Shown piece by piece: positions 7,297 to 59,690 of a stretch of DNA of 64,000 nucleotides. Numbering within the stretch: position 1 is the first letter of the stretch; each line of letters begins with the position of its first letter. The notes beneath the pieces were generated by a model. That model was not told where the DNA came from. It did no database searches and saw nothing but the letters and a program-made list of their open reading frames with translations. The position numbers and the translations under genes are program-made. This DNA is from Mucilaginibacter daejeonensis (GTDB lineage: Bacteria; Bacteroidota; Bacteroidia; Sphingobacteriales; Sphingobacteriaceae), in assembly GCF_020783335.1 (NCBI RefSeq), contig NZ_CP086068.1:4216001-4280000 (forward strand). The letters are read 5' to 3'.

Positions 7297-9198
7297 CTAC
7301 TTTTTAGCACCGATCTGCTGGGTTATCCAGTCCACCAGATCGTTGGCGGCTTTGTAATTATCAAAGTCGGGCGGCAGTTTGCGGCCGTCCAAATATTCGT
7401 TGTAGAACCATGGATCACCCACAGCGATCACCGTGCCTTTACCATACTTGGCCATGGCCACCACTACCTCGCCTTTATGCTCCAGTACCGGTTTGGCGGG
7501 TGCTTTCAGGTCGAAGGTGCTGATCTCTTTGATGTAGATCTTTTTGGCCGTTTTGAATACCGCATTGCCGGGCGGGATCATCACTGCGCCCTGCTCAAAT
7601 TTGCTACCCTCAACGTGGTTAATACTATTCAGTTTGAACGGCATACCAAATTTGTTCATCAGCGTGTTAAAGTGGTTGAACTCGGCGTTGCCGGTATCAT
7701 TATGCAACACCAGCAGCACACCGCCTTGTTTTACCCAATCGCTAACGGCGGTCACATGGGCCGGCTCTACATATTTAGCGTTCGGATTCTCTTTAGGGAT
7801 ATCAGCATCAATGATCACATAAACCGATGCCGGCTTCAGATCTGCCGTGGTAGGTGCTTTGTACAGCGTACCGATGTTGAAACCGTAGTTCTTGAATACC
7901 TGCCCGAACAATGACACGCCGTTATTGTCCCACTGCTCCCATTTGTAATGATAAGGCACCAGGGTACCGGTCACGTCCTTTTTGCGTTCGTCGTTAAAAT
8001 AGCTGTCGAGCAGTACGTTCTTGTTGTTGGCCTTGCTCAGGTCAGGTATACGCTCGATCTCGACCGCTGCCTGGATGAACGCGCCTACACCTTTGGCATC
8101 GTTGGTGACCACCTTTTCACTCAGGTAGTACTCGTAGCTGCCATCGCGGTATGGCTGGCCACCTAAACCGGCCACGCTTACCGTACCGTTCAGGTTGGTC
8201 TGCCCATCGGCATCAACGCTAATGAATTTTTTGATGATACCATTATAACCCTTTTGAGCCACCTCGCGGAAGTACACCGGCAAATAGTGCTGCCTTACGC
8301 CTTTTGCCAACGCATACACGAACATACATGATGCCGAAGCTTCGAGGTAATTACCCTTGCCGGTCGCCCGGTCGAGCACCTGGTACCAAAGCCCGGTGGG
8401 CTTATCCTGGAATTTGGCCACCGCCGTGGCGTAACGGCCTAATATGGCCAGCAGCGCCGGGCGTTTAGGGTGATCTAATGGCATTTGATCTAATACATCT
8501 ACCAAAGCCATACCGTACCAGCCCATGGCCCTGCCCCAAAAATGCGGCGAACGACCGGTGGTCTTGTCGGCCCAGCGCTCTTGTTTGCTTTGATCCCAGG
8601 CATGGTATAACAGGCCGGTCTTGGCATCGCGTGAGCTGCGCTCCATCAGAATGAACTGGTTGGCGATATCGTTAAAAGCGGTGTCTTCATGAAAGGTGTT
8701 GGCGTACTCGGCGTAGAAAGGTTCACCCATGTACAGGCCATCAAGCCACATTTGGTTGGGGTAGCGTTTCTTATGCCAAAAACCACCCTCAGGTACGCGG
8801 GGCTGCTGGCGCAATTGCTCGCGGAGGGTGCGTACGGCGGTGAGGTACTTGGCGGTACCCAGCACTTTGTACAGCATGAGCACCGAGCGGCCCGATAGAA
8901 CGTTATCGATGTTATAATCGGCCATTTTGTAGCCTTTGATGGTACCGTCATCAGCGATGTGGGCATCAACCCGGGCCTTAATGTAGTTGAAATACGTGCG
9001 GTCGGCGGTTTGCAGCCAAACATCTTGTACGCCTTTCCATACCACGCCCTGCTCGTATGTCCAATGGGGTTTGGAGGTATCGGCCCAAACCTTCATGGCG
9101 GTACGGGCCATGCGTTGTGAATATGGCAAAGCGGCATCCTGAGCATGAACAAGCTGAAGGCCTGCCAGCAGGAACAATCCAAGTAAGATCTTTCTCAT
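7297..9198 (-). CDS. GH105 unsaturated rhamnogalacturonyl hydrolase fused to a DUF4350-like domain
   Basis: This 633-residue protein has a signal peptide (1-20, ending VHAQ). Residues about 25-385 are an (alpha/alpha)6 GH105 (YteR/YesR-like) domain. D153 in QMWLDGLYMGEP matches the catalytic Asp of that family, and PHFWGRAMGWYGMALVD and LEASASCMFVYALAKG are family signatures. Such enzymes remove the 4,5-unsaturated galacturonyl residue left by pectate or rhamnogalacturonan lyases. Residues about 430-630 form a second alpha/beta domain like DUF4350, with VIIDADIP, GGVLLVLHND and VIAVGDPWFYNE. A probable LacI operator (9268-9279) lies 70 bases upstream. A lyase that would supply its substrate is not in the window. 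Confidence 0.9.
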   Translation of the reverse strand: MRKILLGLFLLAGLQLVHAQDAALPYSQRMARTAMKVWADTSKPHWTYEQGVVWKGVQDVWLQTADRTYFNYIKARVDAHIADDGTIKGYKMADYNIDNVLSGRSVLMLYKVLGTAKYLTAVRTLREQLRQQPRVPEGGFWHKKRYPNQMWLDGLYMGEPFYAEYANTFHEDTAFNDIANQFILMERSSRDAKTGLLYHAWDQSKQERWADKTTGRSPHFWGRAMGWYGMALVDVLDQMPLDHPKRPALLAILGRYATAVAKFQDKPTGLWYQVLDRATGKGNYLEASASCMFVYALAKGVRQHYLPVYFREVAQKGYNGIIKKFISVDADGQTNLNGTVSVAGLGGQPYRDGSYEYYLSEKVVTNDAKGVGAFIQAAVEIERIPDLSKANNKNVLLDSYFNDERKKDVTGTLVPYHYKWEQWDNNGVSLFGQVFKNYGFNIGTLYKAPTTADLKPASVYVIIDADIPKENPNAKYVEPAHVTAVSDWVKQGGVLLVLHNDTGNAEFNHFNTLMNKFGMPFKLNSINHVEGSKFEQGAVMIPPGNAVFKTAKKIYIKEISTFDLKAPAKPVLEHKGEVVVAMAKYGKGTVIAVGDPWFYNEYLDGRKLPPDFDNYKAANDLVDWITQQIGAKK

Positions 9199-9267
9199 TA
9201 TATATTGGTCACACTTACGAGTTTACAATTTTAAACATTATCTGTCAGGCTGATGCCAAAAATCCAT

Positions 9268-9279
9268 GCAAACGTTTGC
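9268..9279. promoter_or_regulatory. LacI-type operator upstream of the GH105 gene
   Basis: GCAAACGTTTGC is a perfect 12-base palindrome with the central CG that is typical of LacI/GalR operators. It sits in the 98-base gap between the pectinesterase gene and the GH105 gene, about 70 bases before the GH105 start. A near-identical site lies at 12972. The likely ligand is the LacI regulator encoded at 13143. Confidence 0.75.
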
Positions 9280-9296
9280 GCATGGCGATCGGTCAT

Positions 9297-10307
9297 TTAC
9301 TGCCTGGCTTCAGGCTGCCAATTATCAGTGCCACCCAGAATATTTTTAATGGTATAGGCTTTGGCTTCCTGATCGCTCAGTTGCTTGCTCCAGGCCACGC
9401 GCTGGGAGGTGTTGGCTCCGGGGCCGGTGTTCTTGTACTCGGCGTAATAGGCGGTCAATTCCTTGTTGGGGAACATGGCATCGCCGGGCCAGGAGTTCCA
9501 GCCGGCCGGGGCAATGTGCGCACCGATCTGGCAGTTCATGAACACCGTACGGGCGTAAGGCCTCCACGGGCGACCCAGCAACGCTTTCTTCACGCTGGTA
9601 TCGGCCACCAATTTGCATTTCATGAACACAAAGCCGAAAGGCTGACCCTGCAAGGTAGACGCTGCCGTAATGAACGATGGCGTTAAACTGCGGATGGTAC
9701 AACCGTTGAACACCGCCGTGGCCGCCCCGAAAATGAAGTCAGTAGTTCCCTCGATGTAGCAGTTATCATAATACTGGCGGCTGTTGCCATTGGTGGCATA
9801 CAAGGTATCCTGGTTGCCCAGCAGGCGGCAGTTCCTGATGACGGTGCGGTCGCCCTCTACGTGCAGGGCCACGGCCTGGCCTACCCGGCCTGCGGTATTC
9901 TCAATGGTAAGGTTCTCGAGAATAACACCCGCCCCTTGCACCAACACGGTGTGCGAGGTGTAGGTGGTCATTTGCGAGCGGCCATAGGCGTCGGTGCCGC
10001 CCGGAACGGCCTTTCCCGAATAGTCGTTATTGGTGATGATGGTATTCTCCGGCGCATCGCCCACCAGGCTGATGTTGGTCTTCCAGCTTGGGATCAGCAG
10101 CTTTTCGTGGTACGTGCCTTTTTTGATGTGGATCAACACGCGTTTCTGTCCCAGATCGCGCACCGAGTTCACGGCCTCCTGAATGGTGCGGTAGTTGCCG
10201 CTGCCATCCTGCGCCACGGTGAGCTCTGACAGGTACACCTGTTGCTGTGCCTGGGCCGCACCTGCCATCAGCAGGCACATGATCATGATCCGGAGCCTCT
10301 TCATCAT
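9297..10307 (-). CDS. Pectinesterase (carbohydrate esterase family 8)
   Basis: A 336-residue secreted enzyme with a signal peptide (1-20, ending AAQA) that removes methyl esters from homogalacturonan. It is a right-handed beta helix of normal CE8 length. The catalytic residues are visible: acid/base D167 in GNQDTLY, nucleophile D190 in TTDFIFG, and R247/W249 in LGRPWRPYA. The N-terminal motif VAQDGSGNYRTIQEAV is also typical. It starts 7 bases after the polygalacturonase stop, so the two are co-translated; de-esterification gives the polygalacturonase its substrate. Confidence 0.96.
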   Translation of the reverse strand: MMKRLRIMIMCLLMAGAAQAQQQVYLSELTVAQDGSGNYRTIQEAVNSVRDLGQKRVLIHIKKGTYHEKLLIPSWKTNISLVGDAPENTIITNNDYSGKAVPGGTDAYGRSQMTTYTSHTVLVQGAGVILENLTIENTAGRVGQAVALHVEGDRTVIRNCRLLGNQDTLYATNGNSRQYYDNCYIEGTTDFIFGAATAVFNGCTIRSLTPSFITAASTLQGQPFGFVFMKCKLVADTSVKKALLGRPWRPYARTVFMNCQIGAHIAPAGWNSWPGDAMFPNKELTAYYAEYKNTGPGANTSQRVAWSKQLSDQEAKAYTIKNILGGTDNWQPEARQ

Positions 10308-52046: not shown

Positions 52047-53090
52047 TTAAGCAAAGTAGTGTTGATATATTGTAGAGATAACGCCGGTCAACACGATGTT
52101 GGCAATGGCCAATGGAATCAGTGTCTTCCAGCCTAAGTGCATCAGCTGATCATAACGAAAACGCGGGATGGTCCAGCGGATCCACATGAAGAAGAAGATG
52201 AACGCGAATATTTTAGCGAACAATACCACCACACCAATAATAGGCGCAATGGTAGGACCCGCATGAGCAGCCACCCAGTCCATACCCGGATAGTTGTAGC
52301 CACCCCAGTATAGCGTAGCCATAACAGCCGATGATACGAACATGTTGATATACTCGGCGAACAGGTAAAAACCCAGTTTCATAGAAGAGTATTCGGTGTG
52401 ATAGCCACCTACCAGTTCGGTCTCACACTCGGGGAGGTCGAACGGGCTACGGTTGGTCTCGGCAAAAGCGCATACCATAAAGATCAGGAAGCCAAGCGGC
52501 TGGTACAAAACGTTCCAGTGCCAGCCATGCTGCTGGGCAGCGATCTCTTTCAGGCTAAGGGTCTGCGTAAGCATCAACAGGGCGATGATAGACAGGCCCA
52601 TCGATATCTCGTAGCTGATGCTTTGCGAAGCTGCACGGATAGCACCCAGCAATGAATATTTATTGTTAGATGCCCAGCCACCGATCATGATGCCGTATAC
52701 ACCTAATGACACCACACCGAAAATGTAGAGGATACCCACGTTGATGTCGGTCACCTGCAGATCGATCAGGCGGTCGCCGATCTTCATTTGCGGCCCCCAG
52801 GGGATCACCGCAGAGCCGATACAAGCGGTCATGATCGCTAATGAAGGACCTACCACGAACAAAAAGCCGCTGGCTCTTGTCGGGATGATCTCTTCTTTCA
52901 TGAACATCTTGGCACCATCGGCCAAAGGCTGTAATATACCGAACGGACCGGCGCGGTTAGGGCCTACCCTATCTTGAAAAAAGGCGGCCACTTTACGTTC
53001 GGCATAAGTAGAGTACATGGCTACTACCAGGCTAATGGCAAAGATCGCCACCACCAATATTAGCTTAATGATAAGATCAGTAGTTTCCAT
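52047..53090 (-). CDS. nuoH: NADH-quinone oxidoreductase subunit H
   Basis: 347 residues, about eight membrane helices; the protein forms the quinone-binding junction of complex I. Family motifs are AYSTYAERKVAAFFQDRVGPNRAGPFG-type (here AERKVAAFFQDRVGPNR), LADGAKMFMKEEIIP, SPFDLPECETELVGGYHTEYSSMK and IRWTIPRFRYDQLMHLGWK. Normal length (E. coli 325). It overlaps the nuoG stop by one base. Confidence 0.97.
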   Translation of the reverse strand: METTDLIIKLILVVAIFAISLVVAMYSTYAERKVAAFFQDRVGPNRAGPFGILQPLADGAKMFMKEEIIPTRASGFLFVVGPSLAIMTACIGSAVIPWGPQMKIGDRLIDLQVTDINVGILYIFGVVSLGVYGIMIGGWASNNKYSLLGAIRAASQSISYEISMGLSIIALLMLTQTLSLKEIAAQQHGWHWNVLYQPLGFLIFMVCAFAETNRSPFDLPECETELVGGYHTEYSSMKLGFYLFAEYINMFVSSAVMATLYWGGYNYPGMDWVAAHAGPTIAPIIGVVVLFAKIFAFIFFFMWIRWTIPRFRYDQLMHLGWKTLIPLAIANIVLTGVISTIYQHYFA

Positions 53091-54091
53091 TACAGTCGTG
53101 TCTCCCGTTCAAATTGTTCTTTATTAGCCTCCTGTAATACCAGGTTAGGTTTTACTACAGGCAGCGGCTTCAATGTATCGTAGTGGTTAGCGCTGATCAC
53201 CGAGGTATTGGCGATCTTACGCGGACCTTCGATCACCCAATCGGCGGTCTTCTTTTTATCAAAGCGGCAGGTGTTGCAAATAAATTCTTCCACCTCACCA
53301 TATTGATCTTTACGGGCAGTTACCCTGATCACATCCTCGCCTTTATACCATAAGGTCACCTTACCATTGCATTTCTCGTGCTCGCAATCGCGGTGGGCAT
53401 CAACTGGTTTGGTGAACCATACACGGTTCTTGAAGCGGAAGGTCTTATCGGTCAACGCACCAACAGGGCATACATCGATCACGTTACCTGAAAAGTCGTT
53501 GTCCACTGCTTTGTGTATGTAGGTAGATATCTCGGCATGATCGCCACGGTTCAATACACCATGTACGCGTTGCTCGGTGATCTGATCGGCCGTGAACACG
53601 CAACGGTAACAAAGTATGCAGCGCGTCATGTGGAGTTGGATCTTGTCACCTATATCGATACGCTCGAACGTACGACGATCAAATTCGTAACGGGTCTTGG
53701 CAGCACCGTGTTCAAAACCCAGATCTTGCAGGTGGCATTCGCCAGCCTGGTCACATACCGGGCAATCAAGCGGGTGATTGATGAGCAGCATCTCTACCAC
53801 TCCTTTACGGGCCTCGATCACCTCAGGCGAGGTGATATTTTGAACCTCCATACCGTCCATCACTGCGGTGCGGCATGAGGCTACCAGCTTAGGCATTGGG
53901 CGAGGGTCCTTTTCAGAGCCCTTGCTCACCTTTACCAGGCAGGTGCGGCATTTACCACCGCTGCCCTCAAGCTTTGAGTAATAACACATTGCCGGTGGCA
54001 CGATATCGCCTCCTATTTGCCTTGCGGCATTCAGGATGCTGGTGCCAGGCTCAACATCAATACTAATTCCGTCAATAGTTACTTTAACCAT
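53090..54091 (-). CDS. nuoG: Short NuoG-like 2Fe-2S/4Fe-4S subunit of complex I
   Basis: 333 residues from the ATG at 54091 (MVKVTIDGISIDVEPGTS); a 7-codon TTG extension was rejected. 2Fe-2S ligands are C36, C48, C51 and C73. The N5-type set is H106, C110, C113 and C119; the N4-type set is C158, C161, C164 and C208. A last group, C236, C241, C272 and C275, occupies the place of the Fe4S4 domain that precedes the molybdopterin-like part. The protein then ends: E. coli NuoG is about 908 residues, so the large C-terminal domain is absent. Short NuoG proteins are known in Bacteroidota. A gamma-glutamylcyclotransferase gene overlaps its start by 8 bases. Confidence 0.92.
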   Translation of the reverse strand: MVKVTIDGISIDVEPGTSILNAARQIGGDIVPPAMCYYSKLEGSGGKCRTCLVKVSKGSEKDPRPMPKLVASCRTAVMDGMEVQNITSPEVIEARKGVVEMLLINHPLDCPVCDQAGECHLQDLGFEHGAAKTRYEFDRRTFERIDIGDKIQLHMTRCILCYRCVFTADQITEQRVHGVLNRGDHAEISTYIHKAVDNDFSGNVIDVCPVGALTDKTFRFKNRVWFTKPVDAHRDCEHEKCNGKVTLWYKGEDVIRVTARKDQYGEVEEFICNTCRFDKKKTADWVIEGPRKIANTSVISANHYDTLKPLPVVKPNLVLQEANKEQFERETRL

Positions 54092-54476
54092 TATTAACTT
54101 TATTTCTAACAAAAGCGAGGTAATCGCCGTTGATGATCTCTTTATGCTTAGGCTTTAGGGCATCCTGATAAAGGTATACCCAACACCTGATCCGCTCATT
54201 ATCTGATGACCTCACCATCATTTTTCTGCGGATGTACTCGCTGCCTTCATATTCATCCAGCTCAGCAAATACCCGTTGTGGTTCGGTCACCCGGTATATC
54301 TCTCCGTACACCTCGTACCCGTTAGGGTCCTCTATTAAACCGGGATAACTTCCCAGATCGTAAAGCCTGCCTTTTACAAGGCCGGATCCACTGTGCTGCA
54401 GATATGGAGCCAATGGCCTTATTACCTCATGGTCAAAGTGTTTGAGCAAGGTACCGTACACAAATAAACATTCCAT
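54084..54476 (-). CDS. Gamma-glutamylcyclotransferase/AIG2-like protein inside the nuo operon
   Basis: A 130-residue protein of the GGCT/AIG2 fold. The signature glycine-rich turn is VYGTLL (residues 6-11), and the probable catalytic glutamate is in DEYEGSEYIRR (residues about 74-84). Known members cyclise gamma-glutamyl amines or peptides, or trim modified proteins. It lies between nuoF and nuoG, its stop overlaps the nuoG start by 8 bases (54084-54091), and it starts 38 bases after the 102-residue gene. Nothing in complex I needs this activity, so a linked function is inferred only from coupling. Confidence 0.85.
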   Translation of the reverse strand: MECLFVYGTLLKHFDHEVIRPLAPYLQHSGSGLVKGRLYDLGSYPGLIEDPNGYEVYGEIYRVTEPQRVFAELDEYEGSEYIRRKMMVRSSDNERIRCWVYLYQDALKPKHKEIINGDYLAFVRNKVNNG

Positions 54477-54514
54477 TCAATGCCTCCCTATGTAAGGTAC
54501 CTTGTTCATCAGCC

Positions 54515-54823
54515 TTATAGCTGATATTCTTTAACTATGGGTTGGCCTTGCGCATCCTTACCCATCTCAATATCGATCTTTGCGCCTTTCAGTATGGGCG
54601 AGTCCTGTAAGATGCCGGTCAGTGACCTGACCATCAACTCCGGATCGTGCGAGCTCATGTAAAAGATCGCCAGATTGTTATCCTCGTCCAACTCGTAGCT
54701 ATCGTACTCACCTATACGCCGGTGAGTAAGCGTTTCATCTATATTTTCTTGCAACTGATCTAAATAGTCAAAGTCCTCTACCTTGTAGTTGAACTTAATG
54801 ATCACATCGTGGTTCTCTGCCAT
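54515..54823 (-). CDS. Hypothetical 102-residue protein inside the nuo operon
   Basis: A small acidic protein with no signal peptide or membrane helix. It begins MAENHDVIIKFNYKVEDFDYLDQLQENID, and contains the segment LAIFYMSSHDPELMVRSLTGIL; the layout suggests an alpha/beta ferredoxin-like fold. I do not recognise the family and will not assign a function. It lies 78 bases after the nuoF stop and 38 bases before the cyclotransferase gene, in the same direction and with no terminator either side, so it is probably transcribed with nuo genes. Confidence 0.65.
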   Translation of the reverse strand: MAENHDVIIKFNYKVEDFDYLDQLQENIDETLTHRRIGEYDSYELDEDNNLAIFYMSSHDPELMVRSLTGILQDSPILKGAKIDIEMGKDAQGQPIVKEYQL

Positions 54824-54901
54824 TTTTTCAATAAGTATCGTTATGTGTTAATAAATATAACGCAACTTACTATCAATCAGTATTGTTTTTAGCATTTAAT
54901 G

Positions 54902-56257
54902 CTATGCCTCAACCTTGACTAAAGGGTCTGCATAATGAGCCAGACCAAAGTTACCGGCAACTGCTGCCGAGGGGTTGGTCACATGCCATTCGAACTCATC
55001 CCTGAAGTGACGGATCGCGCTGGCCACCGGCCACGCTGCCGCATCACCCAACGGACAGATCGTATTTCCTTCTATCTTTTTCGATACATCTACCAGCAGG
55101 TCCATATCGCTCAGTTTGCCATGACCATGCTCCAACCGGTGCAGTACCTTCTCCATCCAGCCGGTACCCTCACGGCAAGGCGAACATTGTCCGCAGCTTT
55201 CGTGGTGATAGAAACGGGTGAAGTTCCAGGTGTTACGAACGATGCACTGGTCCTCGTCAAAAGCGATAAAGCCGCCTGAACCCATCATGGTACCGGTAGC
55301 AAAACCACCTTCTGACAAACCTTCGTAGCTCATTACACGGGCATCGCCAGCAGCTGTTTTCAGGATCAGGTTAGCAGGCAATATCGGCACTGATGAACCA
55401 CCGGCAACTACCGCCTTTAAGCGCTTGCCGTTAGCTATACCACCGCAATACTCGTCCGAATAGATGAACTCCTCTACAGGCACACCCAATTCGATCTCGT
55501 AAACGCCTGGTTTTTTCAGGTTACCACCTGCCGAAATCAGTTTGGTACCGGTACTACGGCCGATACCGATCTTAGCATACTCATCGCCACCATCACGAAT
55601 GATCGGCACGGTAGCCGCGATAGACTCTACGTTGTTGACCACCGTAGGACAACCATACAGACCCGCGATAGCCGGGAACGGTGGTTTGATGCGTGGATTA
55701 CCACGTTTACCTTCCAACGATTCGATCAGTGCGGTCTCTTCGCCGCAGATGTAAGCACCACCACCTGGTTGTACATACAACTCCAGGTCGTAACCGGTGC
55801 CTAAAATGTCTTTGCCTAACAAACCTGCATTACGGGCCTCGGCAATGGCTCTTTCCAGTATACGAATCTGAGGCATCATTTCGCCACGTACGTAGATGTA
55901 CGAGGTTTTTGCGCCCAGTGCATAACTGGCTATGATCATACCCTCGATCAGTAAGTGAGGGATGTGGGTCATTAAATAACGGTCCTTGAAGGTACCGGGT
56001 TCCGACTCATCAGCATTGCAAACCAGGTAACGTGGCACACCTTCGGGCTTGGCCAAAAAGCTCCACTTCATACCTGTAGGGAAACCTGCACCACCACGAC
56101 CACGCAAACCCGACTTCTTTACCTCTTCTACCACTTCATCAGGGGTAAGGGTCTTCAATGCTTTTTGCATCGAATCGTAGCCGCCTTTTGACCGGTATAC
56201 CTCAAGGGTATTAATACCGGGTATGTTGATATGTTCGAGTAATAATTTGCGTGCCAT
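54902..56257 (-). CDS. nuoF: NADH-quinone oxidoreductase subunit F
   Basis: 451 residues, the NADH-oxidising subunit. FMN/NADH-binding stretches [15 protein letters not shown] (about residues 53-67) and [13 protein letters not shown] are present, and [12 protein letters not shown] with a downstream Cys form cluster N3. Length is normal (E. coli 445). Its ATG overlaps the nuoE stop by one base. Confidence 0.97.
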
Positions 56258-59659: not shown

Positions 59660-59690
59660 CAAATATAACGCCGTGATACTTAATAACAAA
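59660..59690 (-). promoter_or_regulatory. Full Bacteroidota consensus promoter of nuoA
   Basis: On the minus strand TTTG (59690-59687), a spacer of exactly 19 bases, then TATATTTG (59667-59660): an exact match to TTTG-N19-TAnnTTTG. It abuts the terminator of the TPR operon (59690-59716), and ends 4 bases before the nuoA ATG. Confidence 0.78.

Follow-up and report, generated by a model that had tools for sequence, protein, structure and literature searches.

The nuo/nqo operons of proteobacteria such as Paracoccus and Rhodobacter contain unidentified reading frames. The Mucilaginibacter locus described here resembles them in that non-subunit genes are embedded in a complex I operon, but both the genes and the lineage differ, and natural losses of the operon permit a test here. 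Our literature search, which covered titles and the opening parts of abstracts, found no published account of foreign genes in the nuo operons of Bacteroidota.

One of the two inserted genes, here called GGCT, belongs to the GGACT/AIG2-like family (PF06094). For a member of this family, mouse gamma-glutamylamine cyclotransferase (A2LD1), the published account lists nine active-site residues, Ile50 and Tyr143 among them (PMC2954230). GGCT resembles the family in a profile score well above the cut-off and in the aligned active-site residues that it keeps, whereas it differs from these relatives in that it sits inside nuo and, judged from its anatomy, would be coupled to nuoG. The other gene, P102, encodes a small acidic protein. 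Most probably, two genes, one for a gamma-glutamyl enzyme and one for a small protein with a role of its own, came to occupy a permissive gap within a conserved operon.

The nuoF-P102-GGCT-nuoG segment

The stretch of DNA analysed here (64 kb, referred to as the window) is part of a 4.81-Mb single-contig genome, and its reading frames place the nuoA-N operon on the minus strand, running from 59655 to 45651. Between nuoF (54902..56257, minus strand, assigned from its reading frame and Pfam/NCBIfam profiles) and nuoG lie P102 (54515..54823, minus strand, 102 residues) and GGCT (54084..54476, minus strand, 130 residues). All four share one direction, as the preliminary description of this locus had reported. 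nuoG (53090..54091, minus strand) was taken to start at the ATG at 54091, while the program-made list of reading frames begins it at a TTG at 54112. The stop codon of GGCT (54084-54086) falls within the start of nuoG, which confirms the described 8-nt overlap. The encoded NuoG is a short form of 333 residues that corresponds to positions 1-260 of the 606 positions of the NuoG model, the rest being absent.

The distance from the GGCT stop codon to the nuoG ATG is -26 to +2 nt in 16/16 genomes that carry GGCT directly upstream of nuoG. Since GGCT and nuoG overlap or are separated by 2 nt at most in every carrier, translational coupling is plausible. The preliminary description had stated such coupling outright; the tight spacing on which it was based holds throughout the carriers, and the coupling itself is read from anatomy. 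As in the preliminary description, the insert shows no convincing terminator: terminator-like patterns (four in 3.3 kb) were about as frequent as in shuffled sequence (mean 2.9), and the sole one on the coding strand within the 3.3 kb scanned falls inside GGCT.

Expression signals were compared across 60 operons, i.e., that of the window and 59 of the others among 139 genomes with a nuoG match; this sample is non-random, as it was chosen to include long contigs and, of the 15 GGCT carriers besides the window, 13. A promoter-like match to TTTG-N19-TAnnTTTG (59660..59690, minus strand) lies just upstream of nuoA and is the probable start of the operon transcript. The pattern is weak evidence when taken alone, with two matches in the window versus 1.07 expected, and the full pattern is found in 9/60 regions upstream of nuoA. 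However, the TAnnTTTG box ends 4 nt (51 operons) or 5 nt (7 operons) before the nuoA ATG in 58/60 operons, while among 52 control reading frames of the window eight have a box within 60 nt and two have it at 4 nt, one of these being nuoA. In Flavobacterium johnsoniae, the promoter box spans -12 to -5 (PMC6847099), and the nuo transcript would be leaderless if this geometry holds here. An internal sigma-A promoter of the full pattern was rejected, as it occurs in 0/60 nuoF-nuoG gaps. A TATATTT element (54853..54859, minus strand), which lacks the final G of TAnnTTTG, is found 36 nt upstream of the P102 ATG. The same element lies 33-37 nt before P102 in six of the seven genomes with P102 in nuo, versus 0.3 expected from mononucleotide shuffles, although three of the six are close relatives, and it is possibly a weak internal promoter box for P102. 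Judged from this arrangement, P102 and GGCT are likely co-transcribed with the operon from the nuoA promoter.

GGCT scores well as a member of PF06094 (E=5.8e-26, 91.8 bits, cut-off 22.8). Its profile matches include mouse A2LD1 (2kl2, 1vkb), human GGACT (3jub), E. coli YtfP (1xhs) and YkqA (2qik), and a phage gamma-glutamyl cyclotransferase family (phrog_2520) matches it with E=1.8e-15. Seven residues (Y7, G8, T9, L10, E77, Y81 and Y101) are invariant in eight aligned proteins and align with Tyr7, Gly8, Thr9, Leu10, Glu82, Tyr88 and Tyr115 of A2LD1. GGCT thus keeps seven of the nine listed active-site residues of the mouse enzyme; the equivalents of Ile50 and Tyr143 could not be placed. Based on the function of its family, GGCT is predicted to be a gamma-glutamyl(amine)cyclotransferase-type enzyme that would release 5-oxoproline from a gamma-glutamyl compound.

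P102 has 22 D/E versus 9 K/R among its 102 residues and is therefore acidic. Its best Pfam hit (DUF3388, E=0.078) is below the cut-off, no NCBIfam model matches it, and five relatives of P102 have no match over the cut-off in either collection, in agreement with the earlier statement that this protein belongs to no recognised family. A structure prediction, which the preliminary description had proposed, was run with AlphaFold2 from six sequences and gave a ferredoxin-like fold with a mean pLDDT of 86.4. The best Foldseek match of this model is 1y0h (E=4.7e-4, TM 0.58), and structural comparison was made with the dimeric alpha+beta barrel proteins of ferredoxin-like fold, such as 1y0h and LsrG. 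With VIA-align, 1y0h aligned over 93 residues (Z 8.3, rmsd 4.0) and a mitoribosomal protein over 86 residues (Z 10.0, rmsd 2.9). The predicted fold is too common to name the function of P102, which may be a small-molecule-binding or accessory protein if the fold is any guide. A resemblance to RraB/DUF695 was considered and rejected after profile and structure searches gave no such match. Outside nuo, a further P102-like protein is encoded in G156 (L134) and G044 (L135), M. aquatilis (G and L numbers denote genomes and genomic regions, respectively); the one in L134 has 118 residues and appears by eye to lie near a metallopeptidase-like gene.

The nuoF-nuoG junction across the genus

A nuoG match is found in 139/149 Mucilaginibacter genomes, although those of G134 and G163 are to a protein of about 905 residues that is merely 34-35% identical. 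GGCT lies directly upstream of nuoG in 16/149 genomes, which essentially form one clade, and P102 accompanies it in seven of these 16 carriers. The arrangement is therefore not an oddity of one strain; occurrence in this strain alone is what the preliminary description had named as speaking against it. P102 is found in 11/149 genomes: seven have it between nuoF and GGCT, two lack nuoG (G002 and G110), and two have it directly upstream of nuoG without GGCT, intact in G115 and with a stop codon in G119. All five of the named relatives with P102 belong to Mucilaginibacter. Among 117 genomes of good quality (at least 90% complete, at most 5% contaminated), 115 have nuoG and seven of these have P102. 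These are counts of genomes and not of events.

Outside the genus, both proteins have relatives in other surroundings. In a sample of the family, P102 was found in 7/301 genomes and in one of 25 genera, Mucilaginibacter. In a sample of the phylum (395 genomes), four genomes besides that of the window have P102 relatives, one of them weak (E=6e-4), and the three contexts inspected are unrelated to nuo and have no adjoining GGCT. Three Burkholderia/Paraburkholderia plasmid records also carry P102 relatives with 28-29% identity. The profile of the nuo-site GGCT matches 81/395 phylum genomes, including that of the window. When the 29 best loci apart from the window were viewed with flanks of 1.5 kb, none had a nuo context; three of the 29 adjoin Gln genes (see below), and all three are from Mucilaginibacter. 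The preliminary description had also held that scattered homologues, together with no effect on complex I, would argue against its reading, and such homologues were found for both proteins in the genus, phylum and plasmid searches.

The genomes with GGCT in nuo group as one clade together with G011, with a support of 0.789 in a tree of three flanking proteins and 0.998 in a tree of nuoG and nuoH DNA. Within this clade, G011 has an IVP-type gene in the junction in place of GGCT. The main P102 carriers also form one clade (support 1.0 in both trees), inside which G142, G157 and G158 are without P102. Since the nuoG and nuoH DNA tree places G115 and G119 elsewhere in the genus, P102 appears either to have entered the junction more than once or to have been lost often. 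A search for P102 remnants in 57 gaps with an HMM returned the seven known copies and nothing else below an E-value of 2.3.

The nuoF-nuoG gap is the widest of the 60 operons, with a median of 194.5 nt and more than 200 nt in 30 of them. Other loose junctions are nuoA-nuoB (more than 200 nt in 22), nuoE-nuoF (10) and nuoK-nuoL (median 114.5 nt), while at every other junction the median is at most 34 nt. The nuoF-nuoG gap was searched for three types of cargo, and GGCT was found in 14 operons, IVP (PF05635, 23S_rRNA_IVP) in eight and Uma2 (PF05685) in four, all of them co-directional. The resulting 26/60 filled junctions come from a sample enriched for GGCT carriers and do not give a rate for the genus. 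The IVP and Uma2 insertions are each a single gene and resemble P102 and GGCT in position and direction, whereas the protein families are unrelated; what they have in common is thus the site. Our results show that nuoF-nuoG is a recurrent, permissive landing site in Mucilaginibacter. The nuoE-nuoF junction has cargo of its own, namely a membrane protein of 59 residues, often doubled, in 13/60 operons and a 113-residue protein without a Pfam family in 3/60 (L067, L068, L069 and 13 other regions).

The GGCT copy beside the Gln genes

Other Mucilaginibacter carry a GGCT of the same family outside nuo, as a rule with one such copy per genome. All 17 non-nuo GGCT loci inspected, the best-scoring in the genus, adjoin a GlnII-like and/or a GlnA-like gene, and 12 of them are flanked by both. 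The GlnII-like neighbour has 336 residues (NF041605, E=2e-122, below cut-off), and the GlnA-like ligase has 452 residues and stays below the cut-off of each model that it matches (GlnA, type III GS and gamma-glutamylputrescine synthetase). This copy has never been found together with the nuo-site copy: no GGCT lies within about 1.5 kb of either Gln gene in the 16 carriers or in G110, although the contig with GlnII ends early in G147. Since all 16 carriers are without a Gln-site copy, the nuo-site GGCT probably does its job.

The two copies share a mean identity of 34.5% between groups, compared with 51% and 47% within groups. In a tree that included 22 other Bacteroidota sequences, the nuo-site group forms a branch of its own (0.998) outside the Gln-site branch (0.919/0.791). 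Because it is not nested in the Gln-site group, separate acquisition is preferred with moderate support, and the nuo-site gene was probably acquired independently of the Gln-site copy. A relocated Gln-site gene was rejected for the same reason, as two trees do not nest the nuo-site copy there. With this separation in the tree, the replacement is seen in gene content, and equal function would rest on that content and not on close kinship.

The Gln neighbourhood gives a pointer to a gamma-glutamyl role, though it is suggestive and not a test. Among 32 hand-picked genomes, the GlnA-like gene is present in 30 and absent from G002 and G011, which are also without this GGCT (G002 lacks both Gln genes); every one of the 25 GGCT carriers has the GlnA-like gene. 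In five genomes (G024, G063, G075, G088 and G094), all with nuoG, the GlnA-like gene has no adjoining GGCT. A genome scan with PF06094 also found no GGCT in these five, but the scan is leaky, as four of nine genomes that it called empty (G046, G048, G070 and G079) have GGCT beside the GlnA-like gene. A decayed Gln-site GGCT in G011 was considered and dropped; the site holds another AIG2-like protein with a 111-residue reading frame. For the nuo-site copies, G156 and G160 (L067 and L068) differ at synonymous sites by 0.19 in GGCT versus 0.27-0.68 in 18 neighbouring genes, which may reflect recent recombination of GGCT.

Genomes that have lost the nuo operon

Two of the 117 good genomes, G110 (Mucilaginibacter sp. 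Bleaf8) and G002, lack nuoG. In G110 the nuo operon is gone and the site reads TPR-P102-GGCT-DedA-PPase, while in G002 it reads TPR-P102-nuoM-like-nuoN-like-DedA-PPase, with no GGCT found at the locus or in the PF06094 genome scan. The operon-type NuoD is missing from both. All five genomes tested, including these two, encode a second NuoD with a lower score, and NqrA was not found in the five. Thus, the nuo operon has been lost in G110 and G002, and some complex I-like set may remain. In the genome of the window, nuoA/nuoB-like and nuoC/nuoD-like genes also form another set, which is split in two and lies far from the nuo operon (L149:1856-3080 and 8234-9965; G000:C1:2875000-2894000).

G110 is sister to G068 (M. 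lacusdianchii, with a full nuo operon) with a support of 1.0, while G002 falls elsewhere in the P102 clade, its exact place being weakly supported. As they nest apart, the two losses are independent, and together they provide a test that most operon insertions lack, with M. lacusdianchii and Bleaf8 as a natural comparison pair with and without nuo. P102 is intact in both nuo-less genomes. Between G110 and G068 its dN/dS is 0.12, at a dS of 1.7 that is near saturation, and the two evolve at equal rates with four of four outgroups. In G002, P102 is slower than in four nuo-bearing relatives (unique changes 5 v 20, 7 v 18, 7 v 19 and 6 v 21). GGCT of G110 is also intact and keeps its active-site motifs, but it is faster than that of G068 (18 v 6, p=0.023; 20 v 5, p=0.004; 13 v 6, p=0.17; 16 v 7, p=0.09), i.e., at p<0.05 with two of four outgroups.

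The orphan nuoM-like and nuoN-like genes left in G002 after the loss of nuoA-nuoL (L063:7342-10264) are open over 483 and 461 residues. They have 50% and 45% identity to the window, compared with 78-89% in eight relatives from the P102 clade that carry nuo. In nuoM, Arg replaces the conserved TM7 lysine, and the matching nuoN stretch is altered; these positions have a role in proton transfer. Both losses among the good genomes fall in the small P102 clade, for which we have no explanation. Outside the 117, G163 (99% complete, 6% contaminated) may also be without this nuoG and has no P102 match.

The two losses show that P102 is maintained independently of this complex I. Since relatives without the operon keep one or both genes (P102 in 2/2, GGCT in 1/2), P102 and GGCT most likely have jobs of their own, and we consider it probable that they are passengers for which the nuo operon serves as a vehicle of expression. 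GGCT would then have entered the permissive junction in one clade, where it stands in for the Gln-site copy, and both genes would be transcribed from the nuoA promoter, with GGCT coupled to nuoG. These results support the earlier claim that the two proteins are not complex I subunits. An accessory or assembly factor should track complex I across genomes; GGCT adjoins nuoG in 16/149 genomes and P102 is present in 11/149, so neither does, and most of the genus has complex I with neither gene at nuoF-nuoG. The proposed link to complex I assembly or redox is therefore not upheld: both genes persist without the operon in G110, as does P102 in G002, P102 occurs in 7/115 good genomes with nuoG, and GGCT in nuo replaces the Gln-site copy. 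More generally, a tight, inherited and overlapping placement in nuo did not predict shared function, which advises caution against guilt by association.

Some findings run against the passenger reading. GGCT has sped up in G110 and was not found in G002, which is what one would expect of a gene that is worth less once complex I is gone. In every carrier the GGCT stop and the nuoG start are closely spaced, and the second NuoD kept by G110 and G002 might belong to a complex with NuoF-like partners. Persistence of the two genes could also partly be lag after the losses. Such findings could mean that in one clade complex I recruited GGCT, possibly together with P102, and that synthesis of GGCT is matched to that of NuoG; the enzyme might, for instance, act on gamma-glutamyl or pyroglutamyl groups or assist the NADH module in maturing. 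That GGCT is passed on vertically within a single clade agrees with this. However, recruitment is unlikely, as G110 keeps an intact GGCT, G011 has nuo without GGCT at the junction inside the very clade, as does most of the genus, P102 is not relaxed after the losses, and GGCT replaces a Gln-site copy. A narrower version, in which GGCT alone is tied to complex I through gamma-glutamyl repair or maturation of the NADH module in step with NuoG and P102 is independent, would account for the contrast after operon loss, when GGCT becomes faster in one lineage and is missing from the other but P102 does neither, and we regard it as similarly doubtful.

It is even less probable that the two genes are almost neutral and without a selected function, having been trapped in a loose spacer and retained by chance and because disturbing nuoG translation would be costly. 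The patchy presence, with P102 lost in G142, G157 and G158 and GGCT absent from the G011 junction, and the tolerance of the spacer for unrelated cargo would fit. On the other hand, the low dN/dS of P102 between G110 and G068, even with dS near saturation, and low pN versus pS in other pairs argue for constraint, as do the seven invariant active-site residues of GGCT and the retention of P102 through both losses.

PF05635 and PF05685 genes are often found in mobile contexts. The presence of these families as other cargo at this junction, the phage cyclotransferase family and the occurrence of P102 without GGCT in G115 and G119 would agree with the pair being cargo of a mobile element or of a defence/toxin module that targets the nuoF-nuoG junction, but this is the most improbable explanation: GGCT at the junction has been passed down within one clade, inspection by eye of the neighbouring reading frames of the window shows no integrase or transposase, and in three other Bacteroidota the P102 relatives lack an adjoining GGCT.

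At the borders of the nuo operon, small antisense reading frames with a GG-type leader (...EMKNVLGG..., ...EMKSVMGG...) are found in the TPR-nuoA gap of L109 and L114 and in the nuoN-DedA gap of L114, and by eye these look like precursors of secreted peptides.
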